A stretch of 64,000 nt of DNA. It comes from Liolophura sinensis (lineage: Eukaryota > Mollusca > Polyplacophora > Chitonida > Chitonidae). Made by a program: the position numbers and the translations under genes. Below are positions 410-38,100 of this stretch, in pieces. Location: positions 83,930,644 through 83,994,643 of the forward strand of contig NC_088295.1 in the NCBI RefSeq assembly GCF_032854445.1, written 5' to 3'. The stretch's first letter is position 1; each line of letters begins with the position of its first letter. A model generated the notes under the pieces. The model saw only the letters and a program-made list of their open reading frames with translations. It was not told where the DNA came from and did no database searches.

Positions 410-2398
410 ATGTTTCGTCTCGCCCTACTTGTTACCCTTGCTGCTTTAGCAGCTTTGTCCGGTACGTAATCAGTTTATTGAACACAAGACACACTGTATA
501 TATGTATATATATGAAAAGACCTGAAGTGAAGTAAAAGAGATAAGATATAGTACCTGTACATATCATTAGCATTTGTTTCGTACACTCATGATTTCCTCA
601 CTTTGAATTTATTTAACTTTTCCTTCAGAAAACAAAACTGTATTATTGTAAGCTCATGACATCTTTCTTCATCTTTTTCAGTGACTGCGACTCCATGCTT
701 CAGATGTAAGTATGCACCTCTGTCTTAAATCTAAGACATTCATTAACCTATGGAAGCGAATCTCACTCTGTGACATGTCATTATTGGGATATATACGGGA
801 ATAAATCATTGAGCAGACATCCTTGAAAGATTTTCAACGAGGTTTAAATGAGGTTTTGCGTTTATCATTTTGTATTTATTTATTTATTTGATTGGTGTTT
901 TACGCCGTACTCAAGAATATTTCACTTATACGACGGCGGCCAGCATTATGGTGGGAGGAAACCGGGCAGAGCCCGGACGATACCCACGACCATCCGCAGG
1001 TTTCTGACAGACCTTCCCACATTACTTAGATGTGAGCCTTGAGCATACACTACTTCACACTAATTCACATTTTGTGCGCAGAACTTTCGTTACACTGCAT
1101 GAAAAGGCTTAGTCGTATAGCAAAGACTTCCGAGGAATGAATTTCCGTGAACAGTCAGTGTAGTGCGTTGTATATATGCGTACTGAAGGTTAAGTCATGC
1201 AGGCATAACTCTTAATAATAAAACAACAGACACTACACCCAGTCGGTTGAAGTTATACTGCCATCCAAAGATGAACAGCTGGCATTTGGCACATGGTGGC
1301 TAGAAGGAAACGTGAAATACATAAGGTAGAGTGGTATGCAGTATCCAAAAATATACATTTATTATCTATATTTATAAGGTGAAATGCCAGGATTTCCGTA
1401 TGATATCTCACTGACTAAAGTTATATTTGTTATTACACACCCCGACGCCATGACGTCACAAAGAAATATTTTGTTTTATGACCTTCCAATTCAAGCTTTG
1501 CAGAATGACGTCATACTACAAGTTCAGTCAACTTTAACATTTCTTACGTCACACAACAAGACACGACGTCATACAAGATGTCATGTGCGACGTCTTTGCT
1601 AAAAACATTGCTTAAACTTGTTCAAATAGACAAAATCATGATATTGTCAAAATATAAATAATAAATAGAATATTGCACAGGGAAGGTTGAATATCATAAA
1701 TACTTTTCTCGTGAAAGGTGGAAATGATAACCTTCTCCACGCTTCGCGGCTCGTGGGTTATCATTTTCATCTCTCACTCTAAAAATATTTATGACCTGTC
1801 CTCTATATATTCTTAATTACTGGCTAAATTTCATTTTAAGGGTCGGGCCCTGCGTGACACTTGTGACGCTTGTCTTGCATATCATTCTTAAATATGACCC
1901 TTTCATGAATAAGTGACATCGCAAGTTATAAATATGGAAGAGTTTAAGCTACTGGAATGGCGGGGGTGGGGGTGGGGTGAGATATAGTGTATATGTAGTA
2001 TATATCCTGTTTGCACGATTAAAAAGCACTTGTATCAACTCCAAAACTCGACCCAACCTACACTCGACATAGAATTACACCATGCTATATGATGACAGTT
2101 TGTTGATTTTCTTCCAGGCCAAAGCGGTGTGATTGAATCAAAGCGATGCACAACCCGCGCGCTGAAATGTATCAACGAGGATCGGAATTACACTTTTCCT
2201 GAGCCGTTTTTGGAGAGGCCAGCTTTAGTGTCTTCGATCATAGGCTACGAATATAAGGGTGACCGACATGGCCGTATGGTGATAAGGCCGATGGCCGTCA
2301 GGCCAACCCACACCACGGTGAGATTAGGCACCTGGGGAGACACCTACTTTCAGTTCTTGAACATTTCCTTTATTGCCTGTGGACTCATGGATGTCTAA
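410..2398 (+). CDS. Secreted H-type-lectin-like protein, copy A (118 aa)
   Basis: Coding exons are 410-461, 682-705 and 2118-2398; both introns are phase 1 and GT-AG. The start is the first ATG after the acceptor at 400-401. Residues 1 to about 21 form a hydrophobic signal peptide (MFRLALLVTLAALAALS). Next comes a cysteine motif C-x2-C-x9-C-x6-C, then a domain of about 65 residues with a proline-aromatic-rich entry (FPEPFLERPALV), an alternation of short strands, and the end NISFIACG. This pattern fits the H-type lectin fold (snail agglutinin and discoidin C-terminal type), which binds GalNAc-like glycans as trimers. Two N-glycosylation sequons (NYT, NIS) are present. It is the first of three tandem paralogues. 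The aromatic residue that usually precedes I/F-A in this fold is altered (SFIACG), so sugar binding is unproven. Domain assignment is by eye; the gene model is strong because all three paralogues agree. Confidence 0.82.
873..1040 (-). repeat. SINE family A, truncated copy
   Basis: In minus orientation: a TATTTATTTATT poly-A-side tail, then the conserved 3' block (GTACTCAAGAATATTTCACT on the + strand), the GGCGGCCAGCATTATGGTGG block and the CCACGACCATCCGCAGG block. It stops before the tRNA-related head, so it is 5' truncated. It lies in intron 2 of lectin-like gene A. Confidence 0.85.
1451..1595. promoter_or_regulatory. Cluster of CRE-like TGACGTCA motifs
   Basis: Perfect TGACGTCA palindromes occur at 1451-1458 and 1506-1513, with related sites at 1544-1552 (TTACGTCAC), 1563-1572 (ACGACGTCAT) and 1587-1595 (GCGACGTCT). 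TGACGTCA is the established CREB/ATF site. Enhancer activity in this intron is inference. The flank (TGTTATTACAC..CCGACGCCATGA) resembles 21950-21990, so the motifs may belong to a dispersed repeat. Confidence 0.4.
1693..1795. repeat. Fold-back (inverted-repeat) element
   Basis: Left arm 1693-1732 (ATCATAAATACTTTTCTCGT, ending GAAATGATAACC) pairs imperfectly with right arm 1754-1795 (GGTTATCATTTTCATCTC, ending TATTTATGAC). The apex is GC-rich (CACGCTTCGCGGCTCGTG) and itself partly palindromic. Typical of a short non-autonomous fold-back or MITE element. Confidence 0.7.
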
Positions 2399-2696
2399 TC
2401 CATGGAGAATCTGTTCAATCTGTTTTACCACATATTCTACAATCGTCTTATTGCCATCTGTGCTTAGTGTTGCTGAACCTTGTATCACTTAATGGTTACA
2501 TTTACCTAATTAATTATCTGTAACGTTTATTGTTTACCGTGGTTATGGGTACGTCAAACTTTTAAATTTAATCTTATGCTCTCATTAAATCTACAGTTTA
2601 TTATATGTAAATATATATGTTGCCCGTTGCTGCATGAAAGAGTTGACCAATGTACGATGTATCTGATTATGAAATTACACTGTTGACAAAGAATTA

Positions 2697-2702
2697 AATA
2701 AA
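2697..2702 (+). terminator. Polyadenylation signal of lectin-like gene A
   Basis: AATAAA about 300 bases after the stop codon of copy A, in an AT-rich 3' untranslated region. It is the first canonical hexamer downstream of the gene. Confidence 0.6.
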
Positions 2703-3374
2703 CGCATTTGTTGATGTGGAATTCCATACGTTTTGTTATATTCGGTATTTCTTAATATTTGACAGTTTTGATAAGTCTTCATTATAATATTTGGTAATGT
2801 TTGTTAATGGGCGTGTCAGTTGTCACTTTGCACGGATTCTGGTTAGCTGCGGTTTGTGAGATGCCAGGCATGGCGTAGGGTTTCTTCGGTGCAGAACTCT
2901 GCTTCCCCAATACGTTAAACCTGGTCACTGAAATGTTAGATAACTAAAATAGTCTTGAGTATATGCGCAAACCATCAATCTGACAAATGATTAGATCCTC
3001 TCAGTGATCATGTGAATACCGCAGTTTTGAATATGACGAAAATAGTAGTAGTTCGTCTGCGGTCATTATATGATAGACAGTTAATATCACATAATTTGCA
3101 TCCACAGTAGAGTCTGTGCATAATACATGTATAGCTTCAGGCTTGAGACTGAATGTTCAGGAATGAAACTGCATGCTGCAAGTTGTACAGTTAGAGCATG
3201 CAACTTCCATAAATCTTCACAATTTGGACAGGCATATGTTTTCACAAAACGTCGATAGAGTATACAATTATAAACCCAATGTGATTCTTGGCGTAACAAG
3301 ATCGGCGATCACATCAAAATACCAATACCATGCACGATGCAAAAGATCGCGTCCAGCAATTCAGTTTTCTCATC

Positions 3375-4115
3375 ATCTGTCTTTATTTAATTATTTATTT
3401 GATAGGTATTTTATAGCGTACCTGTTCTCGCTTATACTTCACTTATATGTCGACGGCCAGGATAAATGTGACAGTAAACCCATGCTCAGAGGTAAGCAGC
3501 ATGAGCATGAATTATTTAGGTGCTAACCACTCGTTTATAGACAAAGCTAATGAAGAGGCTGATGTGTACAAGTATCATACTGTTTGCATTCCCTGGAGAA
3601 TAACGCATAAACCCTGGTATGCGGCTAGTTTCATGGGTGGAGGAAACCGGATTGCACAGGCTAAACCACCGACCTCTGACAGGGTACAGACGAACTTTTC
3701 CACGTGCATGTAACGTACTGATTTGCAAACGTCCCCACCAGTGCCGTCAACAACTTATTGTCACCAAATAACAATGACCAGTTCGACACTTAAAAATCTA
3801 AGACCATTGAATAGACGGCACGAGAATCGAGCACTTTACACCGCTAAGCCACGTCTAGCTCCTTTTAACGAACATATTATAGTACAAGAACATTATCTGT
3901 CGATAAGGTGCCACGTGCACCTCATATGGTTCAACTCCTCCTACGGGGAATCAATATCGTGGCGATGTTTGATTGATGTTTAACGTCGTGATCAAACGTT
4001 TTTCACTTATATGCTGACGGCACGGTTTATAGGTGGAAGAAACCAATGTGCCCGGAATATAACGCCCACCTTAACGCCAGTTAGCCGACAAACTTGAGAT
4101 TGTTCTGACTCAAAC
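3375..4115 (-). repeat. Cluster of decayed SINE fragments
   Basis: Three degraded family-A-like pieces: 3384-3480 (TTTATTTGAT..CTTATATGTCGACGGCCAGG), 3600-3690 (TGGGTGGAGGAAACCGG) and 3965-4115 (ATTGATGTTTAACGTCG..GGTGGAAGAAACC). The stretch 3805-3860 reverse-complements to a tRNA-like head (GTGGCTTAGCGGTGTAAAG). All are diverged from the intact copies, so they are older insertions. Confidence 0.55.
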
Positions 4116-4328
4116 TATACAATGGAAACACCTGTCGTTAACCCTGCTGCCAATTTCAGAATGCTTCGTCAATCTCTCTGTAACTGTTCTTGTGAATAAT
4201 TTAGGTATTTTTATAAAAATGGATGAATCGCATATTTTGTGTGGTTACCTTGGTAGCTGAGAGCACGTGACCTTATGTTATTTGGTAAACGTGCGACTGG
4301 AGATGTATAACACTTTACCGCCATCATT

Positions 4329-4880
4329 GTGAACATGACTTGACCGCCATTATGGTGAACATGACTTGACCCCCATTATGCTGAACATGAACTGACCGGC
4401 ATTATGCTGAACATGACCTGACGGCCGCCATGGTGAACATGACTTGACCTCCATTATGGTGAACATGACTTGACGGCCGCCATGGTGAACATGACTTGAC
4501 CGCCATTATGGTGAACATGACTTGACGGGCACCATGGTGAACATGACTTGACGGTCATCATGGTGAACATGACTTGACCTCCATCGTGGTGAACATGACT
4601 TGACCACCATCATGGTGAACATGACTTGACCGCCATTGTGGTGAACATGACTTGACCACCATCATGGTGAACATGACTTGACGGGCACCATGGTGAACAT
4701 GACTTGACGGTCATCATGGTGAACATGACTTGACCCCCATCGTGGTGAACATGACTTGACCACCATCATGGTGAACATGACTTGACGGGCACCATGGTGA
4801 ACATGACTTGACGGTCATTATGGTGAACATGACTTGACCTCCATCGTGGTGAACATGAATTGACCACCATTATGGTGAGC
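4329..4880. repeat. 26-bp minisatellite, about 21 copies
   Basis: Head-to-tail units of 26 bases built on GTGAACATGACTTGAC plus a variable 10-base segment ending CATNATG. The 16-base half is nearly invariant, while the other half varies (CGCCATTATG, GGGCACCATG, CCACCATCATG-like). Intergenic, between lectin-like genes A and B. No protein-coding sense is apparent. Confidence 0.95.
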
Positions 4881-6132
4881 ATGAAGACAAATCTGATTAA
4901 TAAACATGCACTCCTGACATCGATTACTATTTTAAGTGTATAGCTTTGAAACCAAATACAAGTCTTGATACGATTCAGTTTATTTCAGTTAATTCCTGAA
5001 GATCATATTTGAAGTGGAAGGTACAAGCTCATATACACGTTATACATATCTAAGGTTTTTATGTGCGATGTATTTCATTCGGCGTAATGTTTTAAATGAG
5101 GTCACAATCCTTACAGGGTGAAATGTTTAAATAGACCTCTTGTGACAAGGTAGTCGGTTAAAGTTATTAAATAACAGGCATAACCAATGAGACACAGACT
5201 ACTATTCATTATAACCATCCAGCTATATGCTGGGTCTATACTTTGCCTTATATTAATTACCTGCATGTATGTAAGATTTTGCAGTTGCACATGTGAAACA
5301 ATGTTTTCAAATAATATCAGAGCTATATTGTATATATATAAATTAGTCCACGACTTTTTAAAAAATATAAAATAAACCGTTGAAGATTTCCAAATTGTAT
5401 TCATTGCTTGAAGTGTAAAAACCAATATATGCTTTCCACAAAAACCGCTATTATGTGAAGACTATTTGTATTTAATAGTGTTTTCAGTTTTTATACAGTA
5501 CAAATCGCAGATTAAATGTGACCTAAACGCATAAATGGCCAATGTGTCGTCAATCCCCAACCATTTATTCTTTTATTACAAAGTAGCACATGGGACGTTG
5601 AATCGAACTGATCAGTTAATTACTGCCTCAGTTAATAGCCTTAAATTAATAAAAAGACAATTGCTTGAACTAACATGATACCTTGGAATTATTTACAACA
5701 CCCTAGAACATATTTTATTAGGATGGAAATCCCCCAAACTTAAAAGGTCTTAAAATAGCTATGAAAGGAAAAGTATGAGCAACACCCTAGAACTCAATTT
5801 TTCACACAGAAATTGTATTCCAGATTTGTTTGCAAATTTGTAAAAAAGAAAATACGCTTCATTACCTCAAAACGGTGGGACTATCATCTAAGGAGGCAAT
5901 ATAAATATTGCTATTAAATTTTGGTTATAAACAAAATTGAGGTCTCACATACACCACCTAAATGGCTATGATTTATGCATTGAGAAACCCTATCTCATGT
6001 GTTCTTGTTATCACCATCACTACTCCTGGATGATCACTGACAGGTATATAGGCAACTGTAAGTATATACTCTAATGTGATTTATTAAACTGAATTAATTG
6101 TAAGTAATCTGATATGCCTGACCACAACCTAA

Positions 6133-6345
6133 TTTATTTATTTATTTATATATTCATTTAATTGGACAAGTGATTAATGCCAGCAGGGATATATATGAGT
6201 ATAAAGGGGACACCAGACGCGCGTGTGATACCAACGCGCCTCACTGGGTACCATGCATGACAAACCCCCTGACATAAAGTCGCAGATGGATTCAAAACCG
6301 CGGGCACATTGGTTAAGGAACTAGCGTGCCTCTGGCCATTAAGCC
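6133..6345 (-). repeat. tRNA-derived SINE-like element
   Basis: The reverse strand shows a tRNA-like head with box A-like TGGCTTAATGGCCAGAGG and box B-like GCGGTTTTGAATCC near the right end, and the left end is a TTTATTTATTTATT tail. The middle does not match family A closely. Probably an old or separate SINE. Confidence 0.5.
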
Positions 6346-6804
6346 ATTAGAATATTTGGGTAGCGAGGGCCTCATTCAACAAAAACAAGGATAACATGTC
6401 TGTCTTTTATTGAGGGGATAGTGACATTTCACATCGTGTTTCCTCATATATAGGTGTCACTGTGGTGGGTGAAGCCAAATGTTAAGTGACCTCAGATTTA
6501 AATCGCATGATCCAGACATAGTATAGGCATTGAATTTGACGCTGTTTATAAGGTACAGTGCATTACTGGCATCCTATAGCAGAATTTGTGTTCTACAAAT
6601 CAAGAGAAATGTATACGAGATGGTTGTAAACACTTGAAAGAAAATACATATGGAAGAATTGCAGAAGTTTTGCGATTCCAATGGGAACGGAAGACTGGGG
6701 CTAGACTACAGTGCAACACTAAAACACAGCAAAAAACGAAAGGCGCTACCGCCGTATTCCTAGAGACAGTTCTCGTCTACCTGGTATATACAGTAGAAGC
6801 CGAC

Positions 6805-6900
6805 GCAGCGAAACTTGGATTCGAACTCACATCCTCCATAACAAATGACATGACTGTGGCAGCGGGCCAGTGCTTTAACCGTTTCGTCGAGCGAGGACAC
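6805..6900 (-). repeat. tRNA-derived sequence with intact B box
   Basis: On the minus strand, GAGTTCGAATCC matches the RNA polymerase III B box, with ACGAAACGGTTAAAGCACTGG upstream in the box A region. No clean acceptor and D-stem arrangement could be drawn, so this is called a SINE head, not a functional tRNA gene. Confidence 0.45.
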
Positions 6901-8215
6901 TTTGTATACATTTCAGTCATCAATCCTAAAACAGTTCAAACCCATATTAAGGTAATACACCTTCATGACCAACAAACTGAAGAAAAAACTCCCAGTGTGT
7001 TTTATATATAAACTGCCATTGCTTTGTGACGTCCATTCCTGAATCCCAGACTGTTTACATGTAACAGCTATATCCCAAATATATACGTTTCCAGACCTGC
7101 AGAAGTTCATCAGCAATCAATATGTCTAGATGACACAGCGGTCACATCGCAGATATGACAAAGGTATTGTTGTTGTTCATGCATTTCTCTTAACATAATA
7201 CAGATCTAACCATTTACGACGTGTTTATGTGCCTTATTCGGAATATCGTGAAACTGGGGCAAAGTGGTTTGTGGAATGAGCACAAAGATAAGGTTTCGAT
7301 CCAGTTGTCAACTATGCAGAGCTATATTGTGTAACCAGACGTCATAGGTGTAAAGAGGTCATTGCTATTGATAGATTTCTTACACGATCTGTTAACACCG
7401 TTTCTCTGTTATGATCAAACACATAAAGTGTATAGAGATAGATCAAGATCAAAGGAGGTTGAGTGGTGGGGTGAGTGTGCGTTTGGGAACTCGTGGTACA
7501 CACAGGATCTTGGAAGTTCGGTAAATGTTTTTCATCGATGTGTCAAGAAATTACTGAAAGAAAAGTTTAAAGATCGCAAACCTTAATGCTACTGAGAACA
7601 AAATGCATTTCTTTTTACCTGTGTTAGTTCAATGATGCAATGATCAATAATCAGACACAGGATGATTTACCTCCATAGTTAAACAAGCAGTTTGCATACA
7701 GATTCACCTTTTAATAAGCTTACTATTCTTCAGTTATATTACGTGAACCTTTTTTCTCAAACTCAGCAGTAAAACAAATCTGTAGAAAGTTGACCTTTCT
7801 GTGCAATGACAATGGATAGCGTGATCCCACTGAACACCTTCGCCACGCCGAGCAATTATAATAGTCAATGTATAAATTTTAGTAAATAAAACAGACAAAA
7901 GAATAATTTACATTGGGGCAGCTTGTCGATTAGCCTCGGCATACCTGTCTTAAGAGTAAGTACAACGTGGATAACGATTTGTCCCACAATATATGGTATT
8001 TACGTATTCCTGCCTTCGGAGAGGACAATGGCGTAGGGCTTGCTGAATAACAACGGACTCCCCACCCTGACACCCGTCTTTTGTCCCCCACCCACAGGTG
8101 TGTATGTTTCTCTCGTCTCATTGAAAAATGATGATCACAAGGGAGTGGTTGACTTGCACTCTTAATTGATTGGAGAACTTTGGCAGATGAATTTAAAACA
8201 AGCCTAACCCTTACT

Positions 8216-8376
8216 CTGTAAAACTACATCTGATTGGCTGATGTACACGCCCACGTGACTTGAAAGATTCTGAACTGGTGAGAGAATCGGTATACACCAT
8301 CTCTTTCCAGATCGGGATATCTTGATAAAGCACACCAGCACGGTGACCTCAGTCCGATAAATTGCAGTGTCCTCAG
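8216..8376 (+). promoter_or_regulatory. Putative promoter and untranslated first exon of lectin-like gene B
   Basis: A strong donor (CCTCAG|gtaagt) sits at 8376/8377, and the coding exon at 9321 starts with an acceptor, so this is the likely upstream untranslated exon. Upstream are GATTGGCTG (inverted CCAAT) near 8232 and an E-box (CACGTGAC) near 8251. The exact transcription start is not visible. Confidence 0.4.
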
Positions 8377-9345
8377 GTAAGTTTGTTTGTATAAATGAAG
8401 TCGTCATCAAAAACAATAATGTTGATTTATAATAATGAACGCCATTCTGATTTTAAGTTTTTTAAAAATTTTCAGCATAAATTCAGTTTTACTAAGTGTA
8501 CCACTAGCCTTTCATTTGACGAAGCGGCGCGTGTAACTGTTCCAGAAGATTTTCATCTCACCGACTAATTCACTTTGAAGATACGTTCTTCAATCTCTCC
8601 TCACAACAAGTCCCAGTTTGTCGGGGTGGTGGCAGTGAACAATGTCATCCGATACACACCCAGGCCACCTAAAGATATATACATACATATATATCTCGGT
8701 TTTCCGGCTCGCAGTTCTACGTGCCCTTTTCCTTGTGATCCTACGACTGACGAGAGACCGCCAAGGAAACATCTGAAGTAGAATTAAAAGTAAGATTCCT
8801 TTCGTCTGCCTCCGCAAAGAACAGGCCCCAAGATCTCGCGCATTTGTCCAGTGAGGAATTCCAAGCTTCTCATACTTACGACAAAAAAATCAAGAGTTTT
8901 TGTTGCAAAGAAAATTGAAAGACTTTGTGCGTTACTGTCCAAGGACTCATATACTCAAATGGTTATAACTAACTACCGTTATGCGTGTTTAGGTTGCTGC
9001 GAATGTGCATCGTGAGACAAACTGGGGCCTGTTTTTGAGGAGATTCTACTATTCATTGCAACGATAAAAAATTATTTAATTTTTGTTTCACCTCTAGCAG
9101 TATGCTTTTTTTTCTTATTTCGCGGGTTCTATATTTTGTCTAAAATGAGAATACCATATAAATATACTATCAAATACTGCAGTAATATTAATTATTAAAT
9201 TATGAAGTTTTTATAAGTTACAAGCACAAATACCAGAAAAAAATAAATAGTTTAAAATATTTTAAGTAAATAATAATATTTTATTACTCAAAACACTGTA
9301 CTTTTATTTCTTGTTGCCAGGAATTCCAGTTTTCAAGGAAAGGTC

Positions 9346-12300
9346 ATGGCGTCTGTGTCGATTGGCAGCTTGTCTGCGCTGGCTCTGGTTCTCATCATTG
9401 TTTGCGCCTGGACCGGTAAGTATTTATGAGATACCTATGGCCGTTATCAACGCAAATTTCTATGTACTGACACAGCCGATATACCATTTCAACACACACA
9501 TGTATAGTCCTCAGTGCCATCTGTATTACATTCTGAATTATTAGAAAATGTCTGTCAACATGGCCAGCGGGCAAAAACGACTTGAAAATAGCGGTTTACC
9601 GCCATGGATGTTTAATTATGCCACACAGTGGCCAAAGCCAATATACATGTACGTGTGTATTTATTATGTACAGCTGTTGTGCGAAAACCCTTTCAGTAGT
9701 TTTTACAGGAATGTTTTTCTTGTCTAATTGATGATATTATCTAGATGACATTTCATTGTGGGTCTTCAATACGAAAACGTCATATCTACAATAGATTTAG
9801 ATAATAGATTTAGACAACTCTTCCTAGGGACGGATTGTTGTGTTAGATGATTTCTCTGTATAACTATACTTACATGTCTCTTCGTCTTTTCGTTTTCAGC
9901 TCCAGCGAATGCAAACTATTGTTTCCCAATGAGATGTAAGTACAAAGTAATATATTCACGCGAAGTCATCCTATCTGGGATATATCAGGTTCAGAGACGT
10001 TCATAACGCTCTTCTATCGGTCTCACTGGTCCTATTCATGCTCATATTCCCGCCTCATACGCCACGCTTAATCCCATGTTTCTGTCACATACGCCACGCT
10101 TAATCCCATGTTCCTATCATATATGTTACGCTTAATCCCATGTTTCTGTCACGTACATCACGTTTAATCCCATGTTCCTGTCAGATATGTTACGTTCAAT
10201 TAGATGTTCCCGTCTCGCGCGTCACGTTCCATCCTCCAATTCTGTTTCATGTGTCACGTTCAATCCCATGGTTTTGTCTCATGCGTCACGTTCAATCCTA
10301 TGTTTCGGTCTCATGCGTCACGTCCAATCACATGTTCCCGTCTCATGCGTCACGTTCAATCCCATGTTCCCGTCTCATATGCCACGTTAGTTCCATGTTC
10401 CAGTCACATGCGTGTGCTAACGCAGCACAATAACCCAAAAGCCTTTCACCTATGCGATCGCTATGAGTTGTAAGTACAGCTCATGCTGGCTTCCTCTCCG
10501 GCCGTACTTCGATAGGTCTGCCATGCAGAAACTTGCGGATAGTCGTGCGTTTCCCCCAGTCTTAGTCCCAGGTTCTTGTCTAATACATCACGTTTACTCT
10601 AATGTTCCTGTCTCAAACGTCGCATTTACTCTCATGTTCCTGTCTCAAACGTCGCATTTACTCTCATGTTCCTGTCTCAAACGTCGCATTTACTCTCATG
10701 TTCCTGTCTCAAACGTCGCATTTACTCTCATGTTCCGGTCTCAAACGCCGCATTTACTCTCATCTTCCTGTCTCAAATGTCACGTTTAATCTCATTTTCC
10801 CGTCTCACACTTCACGCTTATTATCACTCTCGTGTTTTTGTCTTGTAGATCGTTTACTCTCATGATCTTGCCTTATACTTTACATATACTGTCTCAAACT
10901 TCACGTTTACTCCCGTCCTATTGTCCATACTTTGATCACTTTTGCTCTCTAACTCTTGTCATATACTTCACTTTTACTTCCATGATCCTGTCTTATCCTT
11001 TATTCGGATTTTCTTGCCTTATGCTTCCCGTTTACCCCATGTTCTTGCCTTATGCTTCCCGTTTACTCCCATGTTCTTGCCTTATGCTTCCCGTTTACCC
11101 CATGTTCTTGCCTTATGCTTCCCGTTTACTCCCATGTTCTTGTACCCACTTCATGTTTTTTCCCATGTTCTTTTGCCATATTTCACGTTTACTTGCATGC
11201 TCTAACCTCTTGCCTTCTGCGCCTACCTCCATCTTTTGTCGATCTTGCACTACTCACTTTGTCTTAGTTGCTCGTAACGTTGAGTGGGCTTCGTACAAGT
11301 GGACCCTACTAGCTAGCAAAATTCCCTTTAATCAGTGATACGTAACAACATAAGTTCTACACATAGATATGTCGACAGTTCATATTCTGGCAAGGAAAAT
11401 GAAGTTAGAACACTTTTTTAAATTCATAATGTTGAACTGCATAAGTTCGGTTTTGACGGCAAAAACTCATGGGTGACGTCATATTTAAAAAAAAAACCAT
11501 CGGAATGCTGCATAGTTACCGAAACTGCTGTAGAGTTTACTGTAAACATTATTTCTGACGCTGGCATATTTGAAATTGTTTACATGGTTTAGTACAATAT
11601 AACATTAGTAAATGAATTATGGTTTTAGAGTTAGATGTTAGGAAATTCTCTTATGAAAACAATGCAGTCTGTTCGCAAAGACAGTAGTCTAGGGTGTGTT
11701 AACCGCTTTTTAACCCAGTTTATTCTAACCGCATGTTGTAACAACCGTTGTGAAACAAATTACTCTCCACGCCCAATTGTCCAGCATGCCGTTTGCTTTT
11801 CAACAATCATGACGTCACCCGAAGCAATGGGTTCTTGGCATTATGCATAAGAAAAAAAAGCGTTTTGACTGCATTTTCTTTGTACCAATATGGGCGTCCA
11901 ACATAGCTTTTGGTGTCAGGTGTCAATAACGAAATGTAATTTGGTATCGAGTGTGGCTGATTTTACAGATATCTGAATATAGGCAAAGGGCTAAAAGAAA
12001 CATATTATCACAGTCAAAAATCACGTTTCCTTTACTCTCATGTTGAGGTATACATCACATTTATTGTTATGCACAGGTCTTATTCATCACATTTACTTCT
12101 ATGCATGGAGGGGGGGGGGGGGGTCTGGGGGTGAAGGCTTTTATTTGTCTGTCCACCTGTCTGTGTTTGTGACTTTTCTATCGGTAGGGTGCATGGGTCA
12201 TGGGTCTGATGTACCTTTGTTTTTTTTTTCTGCAGTCTTTTCTGCATTAATGTTTTTGGCAGTAATTAATTGTATAGAAATCATCCTGCACAAAGCACCT

Positions 12301-13067
12301 ACATAGTTCTGCTCGACTTTAGTCAGTTATCTTACTTTCTATATGTATTGGGATCAAACGATTGGGTAGAGAAACCTAAAGAAAAGTTGTCTTTCTATAC
12401 TGGAGTAAAACATTAAATCATATATTTTTAATTAAGAGTTACTATGACACAAATTATATTTATTTATTTATTTATTTGATTGATGTTTTACGCCGTACTC
12501 AAGAATATTTCACTTATACGACGGCGGCCAGCATTATAGTGGGTGGAAACCAGGCACAGCTTGGGGGGAACCCACGACCATCCGCAGGTTTTTGGCAGAC
12601 CTTCCCACTTACGGCCGGAGAGGAAGCCAGCATAAGCTGGACTTGAACTCACAGCGACCGCATTATTTTATTCATACACGACAGTGTATATTTGATTGAT
12701 TTAGTAATTGTGTACACATGTTGACCGAATCAGCGATGTCACGTGATATTTTGGACCCACATAAGTATTGACATTTTATTCTACAGGTGACAACGGGACT
12801 CTGAAATCCGACAGGTGTAAAGCAGGTATGGACATGGACGAATGCTACAACAAGGTCTCGAAAGGCACCTTCAATGTGCCGTTCAGAGAACCTCCAGTAT
12901 TCCACTACGGCCTGAGTCACGTAGATATAGAGGTTGGACCGGCACAGAGGACCTTGACAAGCATCGTAGAGATCACTAGCACAGACTTCGCTATCCGTTG
13001 GGAATGTGAAAAACCAGCATTTTGCTATGGCACTGACATTAACTGGTTCGCATGTGGACTTGTGTAA
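9346..13067 (+). CDS. Secreted H-type-lectin-like protein, copy B (128 aa)
   Basis: Coding exons are 9346-9415, 9900-9935 and 12787-13067, joined by two phase-1 introns. Residues 1-28 are a signal peptide (MASVSIGSLSALALVLIIVC..) with likely cleavage after ANA. Then comes C-x4-C-x9-C-x8-C followed by the H-type-lectin-like domain: FNVPFREPPVFHYGLSHVDI, a central strand TSIVEITSTDFAIRWEC, and the end INWFACG. This copy keeps the most typical ending (NWFACG) and the GLxxxD element expected of H-type lectins, so it is the best candidate for real glycan binding. One sequon (NGT) lies just after the second cysteine. Extra cysteines in WEC and AFC could form an additional disulfide. Intron 2 is 2.85 kb and filled by a 32-bp minisatellite and SINEs. 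Family assignment by eye; a diverged secreted lectin of another class is the main alternative. Confidence 0.87.
10030..10405. repeat. Degenerate 32-bp minisatellite, block 1
   Basis: Repeating unit of about 32 bases of the form CCCATGTTCCTGTCTCATGC followed by GTCACGTTCAAT, roughly a dozen diverged copies. It lies in intron 2 of lectin-like gene B. Overlapping Ser/Arg/His-rich open frames here arise only from the periodicity. Confidence 0.88.
10412..10560 (+). repeat. SINE family A fragment inside the minisatellite
   Basis: Contains the family A blocks GCTAACGCAGCACAATAACC, CTATGCGATCGCTATGAGTT, CTCATGCTGGCTTCCTCTCC and GGTCTGCCATGCAG. It lacks both the extreme 5' head and the 3' tail. It separates the two blocks of the 32-bp array. 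Confidence 0.75.
10577..11200. repeat. 32-bp minisatellite, block 2
   Basis: Starts with about five near-identical units (ATGTTCCTGTCTCAAACGTC then GCATTTACTCTC), then diverges into a second subtype (CATGTTCTTGCCTTATGCTT then CCCGTTTACTCC). The two subtypes suggest successive local expansions. Stray unit-like pieces recur at 12025-12100. Confidence 0.9.
12108..12133 (+). repeat. Poly-G tract
   Basis: An uninterrupted G run followed by TCTGGGGGTG within intron 2 of lectin-like gene B. It could form a G-quadruplex on the sense strand. Length in the real genome may differ, since such runs are hard to sequence. Confidence 0.7.
12457..12664 (-). repeat. SINE family A
   Basis: Minus-oriented near-complete copy. 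On the + strand it runs from the TATTTATTTATT tail, through GTACTCAAGAATATTTCACT and GGCGGCCAGCATTATAGTGG, to GAAGCCAGCATAAGCTGGAC and the B-box region TTGAACTCACAGCGACCGCA. Only the box A end is missing. It lies close to the last exon of lectin-like gene B. Confidence 0.9.
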
Positions 13068-13071
13068 TAAA
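13066..13071 (+). terminator. Polyadenylation signal overlapping the stop codon of copy B
   Basis: The stop TAA (13065-13067) shares its two A bases with AATAAA at 13066-13071. Use of this hexamer would give a 3' untranslated region of only about 20-30 bases. Another AATAAA lies near 13171 as a possible alternative. Confidence 0.55.
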
Positions 13072-15148
13072 TACAGTCGATGCATGGAAGGAAAAAAAAA
13101 ACACTTATAATCTACAAATCCAAATGTCTACGTTTTCCGCTCTGGTTTGGCCTTGAGAGATACTGAGGCAAATAAAATATATAACGGTACTGTAAAAAAC
13201 CGAATATTCTCCAAAAATAATCAAGTTACTGAATTTCAAATGATTTTCGTTTATTTCTGCAATGAACTGTCTGCATGAAATTCCTCGATGTAAATAAAAC
13301 AGTTTAAACTTCATCCGAGTTCTTGTTTATTTCCTCAGCTTATGTGTTTCGTACATGCTAATGAAAAGTCTAAATATTGGGAAACGTGCAACTGGTCACT
13401 TTTCAATCATAATTCGTAACAAAAGTCAAACATCACAGGAAGAAAGACAGATTTGGAAATCAGAAGGTCGAATTGTGCGTCATGTGGGTAGTATACTAAG
13501 TACATTCAAATTTATCAATATTTATTCACTTGATAAATATTATAATCAGCCAGTTTCTACAACATTCAAAATATTAAAACGGATTCTGCGAATAAGACCT
13601 TGACGAGTTTGTTTCACCCGAGTTGATCTAGACTTTAGGACTATAGAGAGAAGCTCCGTATTTTGCAATTATTAACCTGACGAGAACTCTCTTCAGAATG
13701 ACACATTTTATGGGTCTACATTTAAAAAATATTACCATACCATTTGTATCTTTCTTTTTGTATTACGATTTTTTGCCTAATTTAGTGATCAAAGATAGCC
13801 GCCAAGCTGTGTCACCTACATTACTCTTTCAGTCTTTCAGGTAAAGTAAATAGCTACATCTAAATGTATTTACACAATATATTACAGTTTCTTAGAGCTC
13901 TAAGTGGCTTAATTTCAGGTATTATAGAATAATAATAAACGTATTAAGTCAGGGTTAATGACGAAATGTGCCACAAACTGACTGACAAATCACACAAGGT
14001 AATATTTGTTATAAAAGCTATTAAAGCATTTGTAATTAATGTAACATTATTTACAAACAAAGTAACATTCGACGTGCAAGGTGTGGCGAGGTGATGTGAC
14101 GCCAGTTGATTCGCGTTCCTTTTTTTACCTAAAGTTTCCATTTTAAGGCTTGACAGGTTAGCCCTGAAGATTATCAATTTGGGGTACCCTACTGACAAAG
14201 TTGGTTAACAGCAGGCATACTTGTTTTTGCGCTATTGTAATAACATCTAAGGTGAACGAAATAAATAATACGCAAAGTTACCAACACTTCCCATTCTTGT
14301 ATATACGTCCACTTCATTTTAAGCTAAACAGTTCTGCCCACCCACAGGGTCCGGGTGATGAAACATGTACATAGCACTGACAGAGTAGTGCAAATGACTT
14401 GACATCAATGTTCTTGTAAAAGCCACACGAGTAGAAAGTTCAGGACCATGGTTAATGGAATATACACGTTCATGAACAAATAGATTTTACCGCTTTCACT
14501 GTTCGTACATGGGGTCTGGATGACAATAAGTTCTCGGTGAACGCAGTCTATTTTTTCTGGAAGTCAACTTTCCCCCACCAATATGGCGTATATTATCCAC
14601 AGTATAGATCACCCGCGGGAAAGTTTGTCAGTAACTTGCCCAAGGACGATGATTTACCCTCGGGCACTTCGGTTTTCTCTACACATAAAACTGATCACAT
14701 TCGCGGAAATGAAAAATTCTTGATCATGGCGTTAAACAACGAACAAATAAATAAATAAAAACAGGGAATGCAGAAAATGAAATCAAGACGTACAAGTACA
14801 TATGTCCCCGGTTATGACGTCACTTCTTCAATATGTCTACATATATAACGGTTTCAGGAAATTAAAACAATAAGATAAAGTATGTCAAATGAATTCCACA
14901 TTGTCCATGAAAAGGGGGTCAATTTCCATTTTAGAATTTTCCGGCAAGTAAAATTCTTTGAAATATTGTCCTTTTCTGATAGCATTATTGTCAATGACTC
15001 TACTTCCGGTTTTTCAGCTTAATACACAATGGCTTCTAGACTCCTCCATTAAAAAGGAATATATATATAGCATTAGACATCTAACACGTATACGTCTGCT
15101 TCATTGGTTGTTTTCTGAGGCTTTAATGTTCCTGTTTTTCTATTTCAG
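13072..15148. other. Spacer between lectin-like genes B and C
   Basis: AT-rich spacer. The only recognisable element is a SINE-like 3' part at 14620-14760. An untranslated first exon for gene C must lie here, because exon 15149-15222 has an acceptor, but I could not pick it out. Confidence 0.5.
14620..14760 (+). repeat. SINE 3' part with AAATAAATAAATAAA tail
   Basis: The block TTCTTGATCATGGCGTTAAACA is followed by AACAAATAAATAAATAAA. This is organised like the family A tail but differs in sequence, so it may be another molluscan SINE subfamily. Confidence 0.5.
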
Positions 15149-15161
15149 GCCAACAGTCAGG

Positions 15162-17392
15162 ATGAATGGTGTGGTTAAGCTGGTGTTTGCAGCCGTGGTG
15201 CTCGCCGTCGCGATCTACTGCGGTAAGGTTGAAATTTGGAAAGAATTTGGGCGGAGTTTGCATGGCGACAGCCTGATTCCCGGCGGTGACGTTCACTTTT
15301 TCACGTGACGACGTCGATTTACGATAGAATGGATCTAACTAAACTTTATTATGGATGAAAATGATTACCTTAAGGTTAAGAACTAGAAGGAATGGCCTTA
15401 TTATAACAAACAAAGCAAAGCTCATATGAAACAATGAAATACATACAGAACGAGACTGATATTAGAGTCCTAAGACATTTAAGGAACCAGCCGGCGATGT
15501 AAAAGATAAGAAACAAACAGAATCAGTGCAGTGTTTATACCTATATCTAGTTCTTCAGACGAAGGTCTACCCGTCTGTCAATCTGTCGAATTCATTGCCA
15601 TCAACAAAACTTTGTCCTGGCAAGAATTTATTATATAAATGTAATATACCAGGGAGATACAATCTAGTATAGGGTCATGAAAGCATAATTGGTGATCAAC
15701 ATTCCTCATTATGTTCTTGATCAGAAATGTGTGTTTAATGCTCTTTTATCAAATATGTTTCAGGAGTGGAAGGTGTGTGCTTCCCAACGGGTGCAACTGA
15801 TTACAAATGTAAGTATTTTACCCATGCTGACTTCATATGGAGAAAAACGTAGAACATACCTTAAAAGCATTATTAATTGGCTTCTAAGATAACTTCAAGG
15901 TGAATTTTGTGGAAAACGCTGTTTAAGAATTTCTAACAAAACCTTAGTGTTTTTGTCGAGGGGACATTGTAGTAGCGTTTATAAAATTTATCAGTTCCTG
16001 TGAAGTCATGGACCCTAGCAGTTCAAACCCAAGTCAGGCACGTGAAAAATTGTTAAACGTGGGTAATCTTGATCTGTCCTCTCTTAGAGTTTCGTCTTAA
16101 AGTGTAATGCATCCAGGACAAAACATTCAGCATTATATCTATTTGGGAAGGTTTCATCGAAATAGTAGTCACTGCAATATAAGTGGAACACGATTGATTG
16201 CATGCGAGTGTACGTATTAAATACGTTAACATCATTTTCCTTTTATATCATAAGGAGCATGGTATAACGAAGTACTTTTCCTCACCCAAGTGTGACTCGT
16301 GTCCAAACTAAACTGTCCATAAAGCGTTAATGACCGTTACTTATTTGGTTTGTGCCGTACTCAAGAATATTTCACTTATTCGATAACGGTGCCCCAGATT
16401 ACTGTAGGCCAGAAAGGTTCCACACAGTTGAAAATCCAGGTTAGCCTTAAAATTTATTTGCAAGATATCGCCGAAGGAATTTACAGACATGTTAGCGACA
16501 CGATGACTGTATAAGCATATATGTGTCCATTTTATTAACATTTTGTATAGTCAAATGGAAGTTCAATGAATATAAATTTGAAGCCAGATTACAGGTGTCA
16601 AAGAAGCGTAGGTATAAACGTTGGCCTACACGCGTTTACACTGCTGTTTAAGCGTTTAGGCCTTTCGTTCGTTTAGGCCCTTCGGGGGTTGCTCATTTAT
16701 TTTGTGCAAACCTTATTTTGTACACGATATCAGTCTTATTAGTACATGCATGTATTAAGAGACAATAAACTTTCTATTCTCCATGAAGAACTGATGATGG
16801 GCTGCATTTTCCATTTAAATTGTTAAGAACGACGTAAAACCCCAAGCATGCATACATATACACATTTTCGTCAGTCTAAAGGATTAATAACTTTCCAATA
16901 ACGAATTTATCCGTAATCTGGAAAGGATTAATCTCTTAGAACGACGAAAACTTAGAGATGGGATTTAACGGTTGTCTTGAGGGTACATTTACTAAGATTG
17001 ATTAATATATACTCTGCTGCAAGGGGTTTAGTGAAAACCTATATGTATCATGACCACGAAATCATAAGCCATTTACCACCTGATCTGTAACCGTTTTGTT
17101 TTTTTAAGGTGAACACATCGTGATCACAAGTAAATTTTGCGACAAAGGCAAACCCATGGATCCTTGTTTCAACCGATTCAGGTACAACAACTTTACCCTG
17201 AACTTTTTCGAGACCCCAACGGTGATGGTTGGTTTGGAATCTTGGGATTTGGTTAACACCGCCGGAGCCCGCCTGGACCTCGACGTCGTGGACGTCACCA
17301 CGAAGAACGCCACTATAAGAATTCTATCTTGGAGTGACAGTCACTCGTTTAGTGCCCGTACAGTTCTATTCGCTTGTGGTTACGTTTACTAA
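15162..17392 (+). CDS. Secreted H-type-lectin-like protein, copy C (129 aa)
   Basis: Coding exons are 15162-15222, 15764-15808 and 17109-17392, with phase-1 introns as in copies A and B. A signal peptide covers roughly residues 1-24 (MNGVVKLVFAAVVLAVAIYC). The cysteine motif is C-x9-C-x10-C-x8-C; the first spacing is longer than in A and B because exon 2 is 45 bases. The lectin-like domain begins FTLNFFETPTVMVGLESWDL, has a central strand DLDVVDVTTKNATIRI and ends VLFACGYVY. Two sequons (NFT, NAT) are present. GLxSWD fits the H-type lectin consensus, but the Trp before the final I/F-A is replaced by Leu (VLFACG), so binding specificity probably differs from copy B. Likely expressed from its own promoter, with an unlocated untranslated exon upstream. 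Confidence 0.85.
16340..16410 (-). repeat. SINE family A tail fragment
   Basis: The + strand reads GTACTCAAGAATATTTCACT between a TTATTTGGTTTGTGCC start and GATAACGGTGCCCCAG. This is a diverged 3' end of family A, in intron 2 of lectin-like gene C. Confidence 0.7.
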
Positions 17393-20357: not shown

Positions 20358-20567
20358 TTAGGCAAGTATTTATTTACTTATTTGATTGGTGTTTTACACC
20401 GTACTCAAGAATAATTCAATTATGCAATTATGGTGGGAAAAAGCCAGGCAGAGCCTGGGGGAAACCTACGACCATCCGCGGGTTGCTGCCAGACCTATCC
20501 ACATACGGCTGGAGAGGAAGCCAGCATGAGCTGGACTTGAACTCACCGCGACCCATTTAGGCAAGTA
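20358..20567 (-). repeat. SINE family A with 11-bp target-site duplication
   Basis: A minus-oriented copy (20369-20556) flanked on both sides by TTAGGCAAGTA (20358-20368 and 20557-20567). The flanking duplication directly shows retroposition. Internal blocks match the other copies, with small deletions around GCAATTATGGTGGG. Confidence 0.92.
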
Positions 20568-29100: not shown

Positions 29101-32100
29101 ACCATTTTGTAAATGAGTGTACCCACGTTTGATGGCCATTATTTGTATTAGTGAAATATTGAAGTAACGTTTAATTTGTTTCCTTTGTGTCATGATTTTG
29201 TCCCACATTGTTAAGGTTCAGGTGATTCTGATGTGGGAGATGAACCTGGCAATGATGACGAAGAGGACGTTGCTCAGGGAGAGTCCATTGCATCTGAAAG
29301 GGGATCATCTAAGGAGGTGGAGGAAGAGGAAAGTGACCTGGACTCCATGGGAGAATCGGCATCAAGCAGTCACAGTGAGTCAGAGGAAGAGTCTGATGAT
29401 GGACCTTGCAGTGTTAACAAGGCGCTGCAGAATGTGAACTCTGATGACGACAGTGATGATGAAGATTATATCCCCAAGAAAGAAAAGCTGGCCAGGGAGT
29501 TGAACACAGAGACCCCCAGGATTAAGTCCCCTGATCAGAAATCTCAGGTATGTTAGTAGATGTGTTTGTGACACTGGGCTTGAGTAAGCGATAACAGAAA
29601 GGAAGCCTTGTTTCATGAAAGAGTTGGTTTTTGTTTCATACATCTTTCTTATTTGTTTCTTAAAATTTTGTTGAAATGATTTGCTCTATTCATTAACTTA
29701 AGAAGTGTCAGTGTAACATTTGAGGTGAAATTCACAGTGTGTTTATGTTGCAGCCACCAGTAGAAACCCAGCAAAATGACAGCATGCCTGGTCACTTGAA
29801 AGTCATCATCTGTTGTGTGTGTCTGGGGGATATCCGGTACAGAGACTCGGAGCATATGTTTGTGTAAGACTGCACTATTTATGCCTGAATAGGGGCTTGG
29901 AACAAATGGTGAATTACCCACAATTTTGCCCCAAATGGTCATTTTTATTTGTCAGATGAATGTTGTGTAATATTACGTTTGGTTGTAGTTGGAAGGCATC
30001 CTACTTATACCCTCCAAACAAACCTTGGTGCACCTTTCTAAAATCAGTAGAAGTCTCAGAATCAGAAAAAAATGTGCAGCTTAGTCTTGTGCAAAATTTC
30101 AGGTTATTTACAGTCAGTTCATAATGTTTCTTGTGTAAGATTTTGCAATAGTGCAGAAACCCTGAAGTAAAATTTGTGAAAATTTCATTTTGGTACATGT
30201 ATGTCTGAATGAATCATCTATTTGAGTGAAATCACACCATCAGTATATTTCTTTGAAATATTCACCAGAAATACCCACAACCTGTTGATATCAGATTTAA
30301 CCATGTTTAACTGCAACCCTTTGTTAACATGTTACATCAACATGTAATTTCATGTAGTATGTTCTACCATTATAATGCATTTACCATTTTGATGTCTCCG
30401 AATATTTATGTTGCTTATTCTTTGAACAATTCATGCTGTTAAAGTGAAGAAGATGATGAAATTGTGGAATGTGATAATTGTGGGGCCTCAGTTCATGAAG
30501 GTGAGAGGAAGAAGCTTTTAGCACTAAAATATATGACAATCTTGTGCTTACCCATGAATAGTAACTACACTAATCAATGTAATCAGCTGTGAAATACAGT
30601 GCTGGTCAGATGAAAGGGTAAATGAAAGGGAAGGGAAAGTTAGTGAGTTACATCTAAATTGACCTCCAGAGTAATACGAGCATTGTAATGAGTATTTATT
30701 GTATTTGAATTCATTGTTGTAAATTATGTTCATTTGAATGTTCATTTCCAGTGCCTGGAAAGTTGAGCATCATTTAGATTTTTACACAAATACAGAAAAC
30801 TAGGCAGGTGCTTGATTGGGACATGTGAACAATTTTTATGTGGTACAGAAATGTAGCTTCTTGGTTTAAAAGATTGTAAGAATGATTTCTTGCACATGTA
30901 ACTGTAATAGGAAGTATTGTATCTGAGCGAAGCTTCCCTCATGGCTTGACTGTTGTGTTGTAGGTTGCTATGGTATCAGTGAGGCCCAGTCTGCTGCCAG
31001 CACAGAATCGTCAGCCAGCACAGAGCCATGGTTTTGTGATGCTTGTAAGGCTGGCGTTATGCCTGTGAGTAATGTTATGTTGAGGGGGAAAAGGGACATT
31101 TTTTAGAAATTTGGCTTCACAGCTCTCAAGGGACAAGTCGCCTATGTGGCTGAGTGGTTGGTACGGTAGTGCAGCACAATGACCCAGGAGGCTCTAATAA
31201 AAGCAATCCCTGTAAGCTCAAGTCCATCTCAGATTGATGTTTTACCCAGGCCATTCTGGTGTCCTGCACCCATACAACTGCCCACCACCATACAAGTACA
31301 AGTAAGCCATTCTTGATTATGGCATTTAATGGTAGTCAGTTAAAATAAATAAATAAATGAATACATTTTTCATGGTTATTGACAACCAGTCATGATACAC
31401 TTTTGTTAAAATTATGTTGGCCTTTTTCAGAACTGTGAATTGTGCCCAAACAAAGGTGGTATATACAAAGAGACAGATGCTGGCAAGTATGTCACTTTTC
31501 TTTATGATTTAAACTTTGTATGATTACTATTTCTATTGTTTGGTTCAAAGGGCTAGAGTGTATGGTTCTTTTAGACTGTCGTTCATTACATGTTGTTTGT
31601 AAATACTTCTAAACACTGTCATCATTGCCTCAGTTGGTGTTAATGAAATTCACATGACCCTATGCACTTGGCAATGGTGGAGAATATTTAAAGTTGATGA
31701 CCAGTTGAGAGAAAGGAGAAAGCCAAACCCCATCAGTCTGTGACATGGCATATTTTTTAACCACACACTGAATTTGGAAGGCTGGTTGCAAAGCTTGCTG
31801 TAAGCATGTAACTTTAATAAGCACTTAGATGAGAAAAATGACATCTTTACTTAGCTGCACCGTTATTTTTAACAGCTACTGTGTTTGACAGAAATGTTTT
31901 AAGTGATGCGTTTAAGTATTTATTGTGTGGTATATTTTGTAGTGAGCGCTGATAAACATTGTATAAAGTGGTGTGGGTAGGGTGGGGTGGCAGTGGTTGG
32001 GGAGATGGGGGGTGGGTGTGTTTGGGGTGTTTTTTTGTGGGGGGGGGGCATGGCCGAGTGGTTAGTGTGTTAGCGAAGTACTGTGACTTAAGGATCTTTT

Positions 32101-35100: not shown

Positions 35101-38100
35101 AAATATCATCACTGCATACCCAGGAGCTGACCACAACTACTGGTTTGAATCCATTTGTATGTGTTGTTCATATGTATCATTAATATAATATCTTCACTGC
35201 ATGCCCTGGACCTGACCACAACTACTGTTTGATTCCATTTGTATGTGTTGTTCATATGTATCATTAATATAATATCTTCACTGCATGCCCAGGACCTGAC
35301 CACAACTACTGGTTTGACCATTTGTATGTGTTGTTTGTATGTATCATTAATATAATATCTTCACTGCATGCCCAGGACCTGACCACAACTACTGGTTTGA
35401 TTCCATTTGTATGTGTTGTTCATATGTATCATTAATATAATATCTTCACTGCATGCCCAGGACCTGACCACAACTACTGGTTTGAATCCATTTGTATGTG
35501 TTGTTCATATGTATCATTAATATAATATCTTCACTGCATGCCCAGGACCTGACCACAACTACTGTTTGAATCCATTTGTATGTGTTGTTCATATGTATCA
35601 TTAATATAATATCTTCACTGCATGCCCAGGACCTGACCACAACTACTGGTTTGAATCCATATGTATGTGTTGTTCATATGTATCATTAATATAATATCTT
35701 CACTGCATGCCCAGGACCTGACCACAACTACTGGTTTGAATCCATATGTATGTGTTGTTCATATGTATCATTAATATAATATCTTCACTGCATACCCAGG
35801 AGCTGACCACAACTACTGGTTTGAATCCATTTGTATGTGTTGTTCATATGTATCATTAATATAATATCTTCACTGCATGCCCAGGACCTGACCACAACTA
35901 CTGTTTGAATCCATTTGTATGTGTTGTTCATATGTATCATTAATATAATATCTTCACTGCATGCCCAGGACCTGACCACAACTACTGTTTGAATCCATTT
36001 GTATGTGTTGTTCATATGTATCATTAATATAATATCTTCACTGCATGCCCAGGACCTGACCACAACTACTGGTTTGATTCCATTTGTATGTGTTGTTCAT
36101 ATGTATCATTAATATAATATCTTCACTGCATGCCCTGGACCTGACCACAACTACTGTTTGAATCCATTTGTATGTGTTGTTCATATGTATCATTAATATA
36201 ATATCTTCACTGCATGCCCAGGACCTGACCACAACTACTGGTTTGAATCCATTTGTATGTGTTGTTCATATGTATCATTAATATAATATCTTCACTGCAT
36301 GCCCAGGACCTGACCACAACTACTGGTTTGAATCCATTTGTATGTGTTGTTCATATGTATCATTAATATAATATCTTCACTGCATGCCCAGGGCCTGACC
36401 ACAACTACTGGTTTGAATCCATTTGTATGTGTTGTTCATATGTATCATTAATATAATATCTTCACTGCATACCCAGGAGCTGACCACAACTACTGTTTGA
36501 ATCCATTTGTATGTGTTGTTCATGTGTATCATTAATATAATATCTTCACTGCATGCCCAGGACCTGACCACAACTACTGTTTGAATCCATTTGTATGTGT
36601 TGTTCATATGTATCATTAATATAATATCTTCACTGCATGCCCAGGACCTGACCACAACTACTGGTTTGAATCCATTTGTATGTGTTGTTCATATGTATCA
36701 TTAATAAGTGAGCAAGAACACTGTCTCCTGTCTATAAGTGAAATATTCTTGAGTATGGCATAAAGCAACTATCAAATAAATAAATAAATAAAATTGTAAT
36801 TGTATCAAGATAGCAAGATTGTTACAGGAATTCTTGAAGATATTTTGCTGATCGCATGTATGTGTATTCTTTTGTGTTTTCAGATAAGAATAAACAGAAA
36901 GCTTAACAGACATAGGCAGAAATATGTTATAGCCAAATCAAAGAGGTCACCATCTTGGGGTATGAAGTTTTTCTGTCTCAATATCTGCATGACAAAATTA
37001 CAATGCGTAACAGATGTTAAATTATTTTACATCACTCAAAATTTTGATTTTGATTTATTTGAGTGAAGGTGATTTTTTTTCTTTTTCCCCCCTAATACAA
37101 GCAGCTGAAGAAAGCGAAATTTTGAAATGTAAACTCTTAATGGGGAATTATTTTGGCTTCAACAAATGTGTTGTGTGTTCAGTTCCCACAACAAAGATGG
37201 TGCGACACCTGTCTTCCTGTCCCTCAGCTGTGAGGCGTATGCTGAAGAAAGCCGAGGTGATGGGCATCATAACACAGGTAGGTCAGCAGGGTGTATATAT
37301 ATATATATATATATTATATAAACATATATATGTATTGATATGGAATGGTAAATGATAAGTGGCTCAGAATACAAATTAAGCTGGCTCAGAGGTGGTTATT
37401 TTGTTTTCACCTGTTTTGGGTTCCTCCACCATAATCTTGATTGTTGTTGTATTACATGATATTAAACACTGTTGAAATGAAATAATCCAGGGTTTTTACA
37501 GGCTCTGATTGCTGATCATAATATAGCTTTCTCGATAATATAACCATACACATTACAGCAGTTATGGTTGTACAATCAATTCATAAGGGGGCCTCCGTGG
37601 CTCAGTTGGTTAGCGCGCTAGCGCAGCGTAGTGACCCAGAAGCCTCTCACCAATGCGGTCGCTGTGAGTTCAAGACCAGCCTATACTGGCTTCCTCTCCG
37701 GCCGTACGTGGGAAGGTCTGTCAGCAACCTGGAGATGGTCGTGGGTTTCCCCCAGGTTCTGTCCAGTTTCCACCCACCATAATGCTGACCGCCGTCGTAT
37801 AAGTGAAATATTCTTGAGTACGGCGTAAAACAACAATCAAAAAAAAAAAAAAAATTCAACTGATAAGCGCACTCATTGATCTAACTGATCAATACTGAGT
37901 GTCTCATAGGGCAACACCACTTCTACAATGATCAATACTGAGTGTCTCATAAGGTGACACCAGTTCTATACTGATCAATACTGAGTGTCTCATAAGGCGA
38001 CACCAGTTCTATTTTGTCTTTTACAGGTGAGCCAACACTGAAAAATCCCCAAAATGGAAGAAAAATAAACTGAAAATCCAATGTTCATTTTTTTTTTTTT

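Follow-up and report, generated by a model that had tools for sequence, protein, structure and literature searches.

Gene models and exon structure

A 64,000-nucleotide stretch of the genome of the chiton Liolophura sinensis (contig NC_088295.1, positions 83,930,644 to 83,994,643 of the forward strand; hereafter the window) contained a tandem family of genes predicted to encode small secreted H-type lectins, each with a lead of four cysteines (Cys1 to Cys4). Three complete three-exon genes formed a head-to-tail array, all on the + strand, at 410-2398, 9346-13067 and 15162-17392. Exons were assembled from raw sequence and splicing was inferred from genomic DNA; coordinates include the stop codons, and gene ends were taken from the ends of open reading frames (ORFs). 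The spliced proteins, each with a hydrophobic start, were 118 (gene 1), 128 (gene 2) and 129 (gene 3) amino acids long. The exons and possible polyadenylation signals were as follows:

410-461, + strand: gene 1 exon 1; carries the start codon and a hydrophobic, signal-peptide-like segment, with a phase 1 donor gt at 462
682-705, + strand: gene 1 exon 2 (24 nt); completes the signal segment, encodes Cys1 (residue 23) and ends on base 1 of the Cys2 codon
2118-2398, + strand: gene 1 exon 3; remainder of Cys2, Cys3, Cys4, H_lectin (27.4 bits over protein residues 49-112), the closing ACG and the stop codon
9346-9415, + strand: gene 2 exon 1; carries the start codon and a signal-peptide-like segment
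9900-9935, + strand: gene 2 exon 2 (36 nt); encodes Cys1 (residue 31) and ends on base 1 of the Cys2 codon
12787-13067, + strand: gene 2 exon 3; Cys2 to Cys4, H_lectin (residues 63-124, 37.8 bits), extra cysteines 109 and 115, ACG end and stop
15162-15222, + strand: gene 3 exon 1; carries the start codon and a signal-peptide-like segment
15764-15808, + strand: gene 3 exon 2 (45 nt); encodes Cys1 (residue 26) and ends on base 1 of the Cys2 codon
17109-17392, + strand: gene 3 exon 3; Cys2 to Cys4, H_lectin (residues 63-119, 37.7 bits), ACG end and stop; structure model with mean predicted local distance difference test (pLDDT) 74.3 and six strands
2697-2702 (after gene 1), 13171 and 13293 (after gene 2) and 17600 (after gene 3), + strand: AATAAA, possible polyadenylation signal

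All six introns were bounded by GT and AG, and both introns were in phase 1 in each of the three genes, the second splitting the Cys2 codon. Exon 2 encoded Cys1 followed by Phe in every gene. The AATAAA hexamer was present 20 times within the first 18.5 kb and is weak evidence for polyadenylation. The original prediction, made from the sequence alone, had described a three-gene tandem family in which identity between copies was low and exon structure fixed. Both points were borne out: the three-exon models were intact in all three copies, each with a hydrophobic start and one H_lectin domain ending in ACG, and identity was 23-27% with phase 1, GT/AG introns throughout.

H-type lectin identity

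The Pfam H_lectin profile (PF09458) matched all three spliced proteins above its curated cut-off of 24 bits (27.4, 37.8 and 37.7 bits for genes 1, 2 and 3), as the original prediction had anticipated. No other Pfam family was listed up to E 10 for any of the three, in a search whose HMMER filters discard most weak matches. Searched against the PDB up to E 10, a profile built from the three mature proteins matched seven distinct sequences, every one of them H-type: four Helix aspersa and Helix pomatia agglutinin (HAA and HPA) sequences (1.1e-6 to 5e-6), SLL-2 (2.2e-6), discoidin II (0.033) and discoidin I (0.21). PHROGs gave no match up to E 1, and in NCBIfam a single match, between one family member and a bacterial small membrane protein (E 0.19), was regarded as chance. 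Membership of the three predicted proteins in the H-type lectin family was thus supported.

Two other groups of mollusc proteins were considered as relatives. The HREPs, gastropod proteins that combine immunoglobulin and H-type lectin domains according to excerpts of the source (PMC8878817), are likewise mollusc proteins with an H-type domain; unlike them, the three proteins had no immunoglobulin domain among their Pfam matches, the only family listed for each, up to E 10, being H_lectin. The Aplysia AKL egg lectins were set aside: the available text proposes an "AKL family" of their own, marked by internal repeats, and does not use the term "H-type".

Predicted fold

Structure models covered exon 3 only, for genes 1 and 3; in these the split Cys2 codon reads as Gly and Cys1 lies outside the model. 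The gene 3 model was fair (pLDDT 74.3, predicted template modelling score 0.60, six strands) and the gene 1 model was weak (pLDDT 66.9, predicted template modelling score 0.48, five strands listed). For both models the five best PDB matches in Foldseek were HPA/HAA and SLL-2, followed by discoidins interleaved with pyocin and phage tail fibres. The gene 3 model matched SLL-2 with a template modelling (TM) score of 0.71 and a root-mean-square deviation (rmsd) of 2.5, discoidin II with TM 0.75 and rmsd 2.8, and HPA with TM 0.65 and rmsd 5.5. The six-strand beta sandwich that had been expected was therefore found in gene 3, with HPA/HAA and SLL-2 as the best matches; the gene 1 model returned the same best matches but was weaker and had five strands listed. 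Taken with the Pfam matches in all three proteins, the exon-3 folds of genes 1 and 3 indicate that each mature chain is one predicted H-type beta sandwich.

Viral structures matched from E 1.6e-3; among those listed most were pyocin or phage tail-fibre folds, several of them named H-type lectin domain. Close kinship with pyocin and phage tail fibres was rejected: in the PDB these matches began at E 0.077 (gene 3), below the H-type lectins, and were read as a shared H-type fold. The discoidins of Dictyostelium (PDB 2w94, 2vm9 and 2vme) matched through their C-terminal part, with TM up to 0.75, but are larger (about 255 residues) and are only weakly matched in sequence.

Cysteine lead

Cysteine spacing was C-x2-C-x9-C-x6-C in gene 1, C-x4-C-x9-C-x8-C in gene 2 and C-x9-C-x9-C-x8-C in gene 3. 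Of the spacing first proposed (C-x2..9-C-x9..10-C-x6..8-C) the outer gaps stood, and the middle gap was corrected to exactly 9 in all three, never 10. The lead had also been taken for an architecture without a known counterpart, which applied to one half of it. In a HMMER alignment Cys3, Cys4 and the C-terminal cysteine fell on three cysteines of SLL-2 (PDB 3wmp), a protein we take to come from the octocoral Sinularia lochmodes. SLL-2 resembles the family in its fold, in a C-x8-C ahead of the core, spaced as in genes 2 and 3, and in its terminal AC. It differs in that its aligned chain (residue 3 onward, of 94) lacks Cys1 and Cys2 and has, between Cys4 and the core, one cysteine not shared with the family. 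The Cys3-Cys4 part of the lead falls outside the span modelled by Pfam H_lectin. Judged by this alignment, the only addition relative to SLL-2 is the N-terminal Cys1-Cys2 pair, which comes from the tiny exon 2 (with the split Cys2 codon).

After the presumed signal segment, whose end and cleavage site were judged by eye, genes 1, 2 and 3 encoded 5, 7 and 5 cysteines, an odd number in every case. The two additional cysteines of gene 2 (109 and 115) formed a C-x5-C around the site of HPA Trp83-His84. In the published text available, HPA is described as two trimers linked through three disulfide bridges (PMC8431231), and slug H-type lectins are predicted to share that disulfide-linked trimer arrangement (PMC4795696). 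Because the number of cysteines is odd in all three proteins and Helix agglutinin is bridged between chains, the analogy suggests that one cysteine bridges chains here as well.

Sugar-site residues

HPA Arg63, Trp83 and His84, which we take to be its sugar-binding residues, were present in three, two and none of the three copies, respectively. In an alignment of genes 1 to 3, SLL-2 and HPA, a Phe, a Pro and the Arg at HPA position 63 were invariant. Trp83 was retained in genes 1 and 3 and in SLL-2, and was absent from gene 2. SLL-2, a galactose-binding lectin by its PDB name, likewise lacks HPA His84. Gene 1 carries a glycosylation motif at Asn 49, in line with an N-x-T motif in HPA. The sugar-site residues suggest that genes 1 and 3 may still bind sugar, with a changed preference, and that gene 2 may carry a different loop.

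Helix agglutinin (PDB 2ce6 and 4q56) was the best PDB sequence match (about 1e-6), has the same fold, and has in common with the family Arg63 and, in genes 1 and 3, Trp83. It departs from the family in that its two cysteines in the stretch compared (residue 32 onward), 42 and 80, lie off the family positions. To our knowledge Helix agglutinin has no N-terminal cysteine pair.

Copy divergence and copy number

Pairwise identity of the copies was 23-26% in local blastp alignments of 98-124 residues, and 23-27% for exon 3 alone. The three-protein alignment contained 17 invariant positions, including, in gene 1 numbering, C23, F24, C26, C36, C43 and A112-C113-G114. Introns of different copies shared only pieces of a dispersed repeat at E 0.01. 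Because the introns share nothing else, and with identity this low, the data fit old duplications, in agreement with the original prediction. Fast divergence, as in immune recognition proteins, had also been proposed; in a comparison limited to three copies that are 23-27% identical, with no orthologue in the set, rate is inseparable from age.

A three-member profile found no fourth copy among 2931 ORFs of at least 15 amino acids in the 64-kb window (next best E 3.5). With gene 1 lying about 400 bases inside the left edge of the window, this count applies to the window and more copies are possible leftward. The profile scored family members at 143-158 bits, against a best of 10.1 bits among 60,814 ORFs from 20 simulated windows; the family scores are high by construction, the profile being their own, and Pfam H_lectin is the independent test. 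An exon-3 motif, written after the genes had been seen, matched three window ORFs, all of the family, and none in the reversed window; in 60 first-order Markov simulations of the window the mean was 0.017 matches and the maximum 1. Short patterns matched 55 stretches of bacterial/archaeal contigs and 65 of viral contigs, none of which was confirmed as a relative; the test is weak, since the patterns derive from three sequences.

Repeats and neighbouring features

The guanine plus cytosine content of the window was 37.8%. A dispersed repeat of about 200 bases, which we presume to be a mollusc short interspersed nuclear element, was found at 873-1025, 12461-12664, 16346-16383, 20367-20557, 37652-37853 (- strand) and 46924-47121 (- strand), with further fragments. 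Its four best other copies were 81-91% alike over 153-204 bases, and there were 18 further blastn matches, some overlapping. Three of the five strict matches to the repeat core (904, 12492 and 16354) lay within intron 2 of genes 1, 2 and 3, with a simple binomial chance of 0.006. A shared intron insertion predating the duplications was rejected: the three matches differ in position within the introns, the 18 further matches are spread window-wide, and the similarity among repeat copies (up to 91%) greatly exceeds that among the genes. This greater similarity places the insertions after the gene duplications.

Several tandem arrays were also present: a 26-base unit in 22 copies between genes 1 and 2 (4312-4884), several arrays of 31-32 bases in intron 2 of gene 2 (10043-11192), and a young, satellite-like array of an 85-base unit repeated 19 times with 97% matches (35102-36706). 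To the right of the genes, an ORF at 44937-45380 encoded a PHD finger (25.2 bits with the Pfam PHD profile, cut-off 24) and matched PHD chains in the PDB. This ORF, together with acidic ORFs to its left (29215-29556), may, we assume, belong to a PHF14-like gene. The base composition, the intron-bearing genes, the PHD-finger ORF and the dispersed repeat, which is of a kind typical of molluscs, fit a mollusc origin of the DNA.

Proposed function and rival explanations

The tandem paralogues are best read as small secreted H-type lectins that trimerise, are covalently linked and bind glycans, a reading to which we give a probability of roughly 0.6. By analogy with Helix agglutinin, the chains would trimerise with the sugar sites placed on the trimer, and the multimer may bind glycans of microbes or mucus multivalently, leading to clumping or trapping. 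By the alignment, Cys3, Cys4 and the terminal cysteine are part of the fold, as in coral SLL-2. The Cys1-Cys2 pair leaves an odd cysteine, which most likely would provide a covalent link between chains, through a residue other than that of the interchain bridge in Helix agglutinin. Sugar preference probably differs among the copies, given Arg63 in three of three, Trp83 in two of three and the C-x5-C loop of gene 2. H-type lectins occur in snail eggs and protective mucus according to excerpts of the literature, and by the same analogy the most likely role is that of secreted multimeric glycan-binding lectins for defence, eggs or mucus. More speculatively, and on balance rather unlikely as a whole, the mini-exon cysteine pair would staple the subunits in a mollusc lineage of H-type lectins, so that a covalent multimer is kept while the sugar loop diverges among tandem copies (with a new disulfide loop in gene 2), yielding a few recognition proteins with different sugar targets.

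Several observations weigh against secreted, linked, glycan-binding lectins. Foldseek E-values were 1e-3 at best, none below 0.001, and are partly sequence-driven; the discoidins were accompanied or outranked by pyocin and phage tail fibres, of which 4ru4 reached TM 0.68. The pLDDT fell below 50 in both models, at residues 16-19 for gene 3 and at 14 of the first 15 residues for gene 1, and the Cys1-Cys2 half of the lead is outside both models, which span exon 3 with Gly in place of Cys2. Genes 2 and 3 carry another cysteine (residue 20) that was assigned to the signal peptide; if it is retained, the parity changes. HPA His84 was found in none of the copies and Trp83 was missing from gene 2. 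This last point also favours a rival in which the H-type fold is retained and sugar binding is lost in some or all copies, the products being disulfide-stabilised structural proteins of shell, egg or mucus. Excerpts of two studies also speak for it: one, on a land snail, lists H_lectin among the shell matrix protein domains that it compared across molluscs (PMC6368272), and the other reports it from one or two Lymnaea shell matrix proteins (PMC7299971). Arg63, however, is invariant in the three copies, SLL-2 and HPA, genes 1 and 3 keep Trp83, and the His is also absent from SLL-2 despite its galactose-binding name; loss of binding was judged unlikely.

Two further alternatives concern the cysteines and the gene models. 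Cys1 and Cys2 could form an ordinary intrachain staple, leaving one other cysteine free and the chains without a covalent multimer. The two residues are near each other (x2 to x9) and the gap varies in length, as in a small loop. This would leave an unpaired cysteine retained in all three secreted proteins, and a conserved free cysteine is unusual in secreted proteins. Interchain bridges are, moreover, used by HPA, as the partial text states (PMC8431231). The staple is possible although doubtful, and it competes with the interchain step only, so that its odds overlap those of multimeric glycan-binding lectins. That the copies are decayed or unexpressed, or their exons wrongly joined, is very improbable: exon 2 is very short (24-45 nt) and splicing was predicted from genomic DNA, but frames are intact in all three copies, splice sites are GT/AG with identical intron phases, every exon 2 encodes Cys1 then Phe, and the exon-3 pattern is rare in simulated sequence.

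Significance

Among titles and abstract openings, with few subscription papers covered, no description of an H-type lectin with such a cysteine lead was found. Excerpts of earlier work describe the family in molluscs unevenly. As of 2017 no H-type lectin had yet been characterised in bivalves (PMC5549309), and in 2022 H-type lectins were not considered an expanded family in molluscs (PMC8878817). By contrast, H_lectin was reported to be enriched in the Crassostrea gigas genome (PMC10546077); it was also among the Mytilus gill genes responding to algal toxins (PMC6215123), and five H_lectin were counted in Aplysia (PMC9334734).

The array is a real H-type lectin gene set with one small extra feature: the family is known and, relative to SLL-2, the N-terminal cysteine pair is an addition. 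The general picture of lectins would stay unchanged. H-type lectins have been little studied beyond land snails. Here three tandem copies combine a common scaffold with loops that differ between them and draw a cysteine pair from a separate exon, a compact case in which the separate evolution of sugar preference and covalent assembly could be examined.

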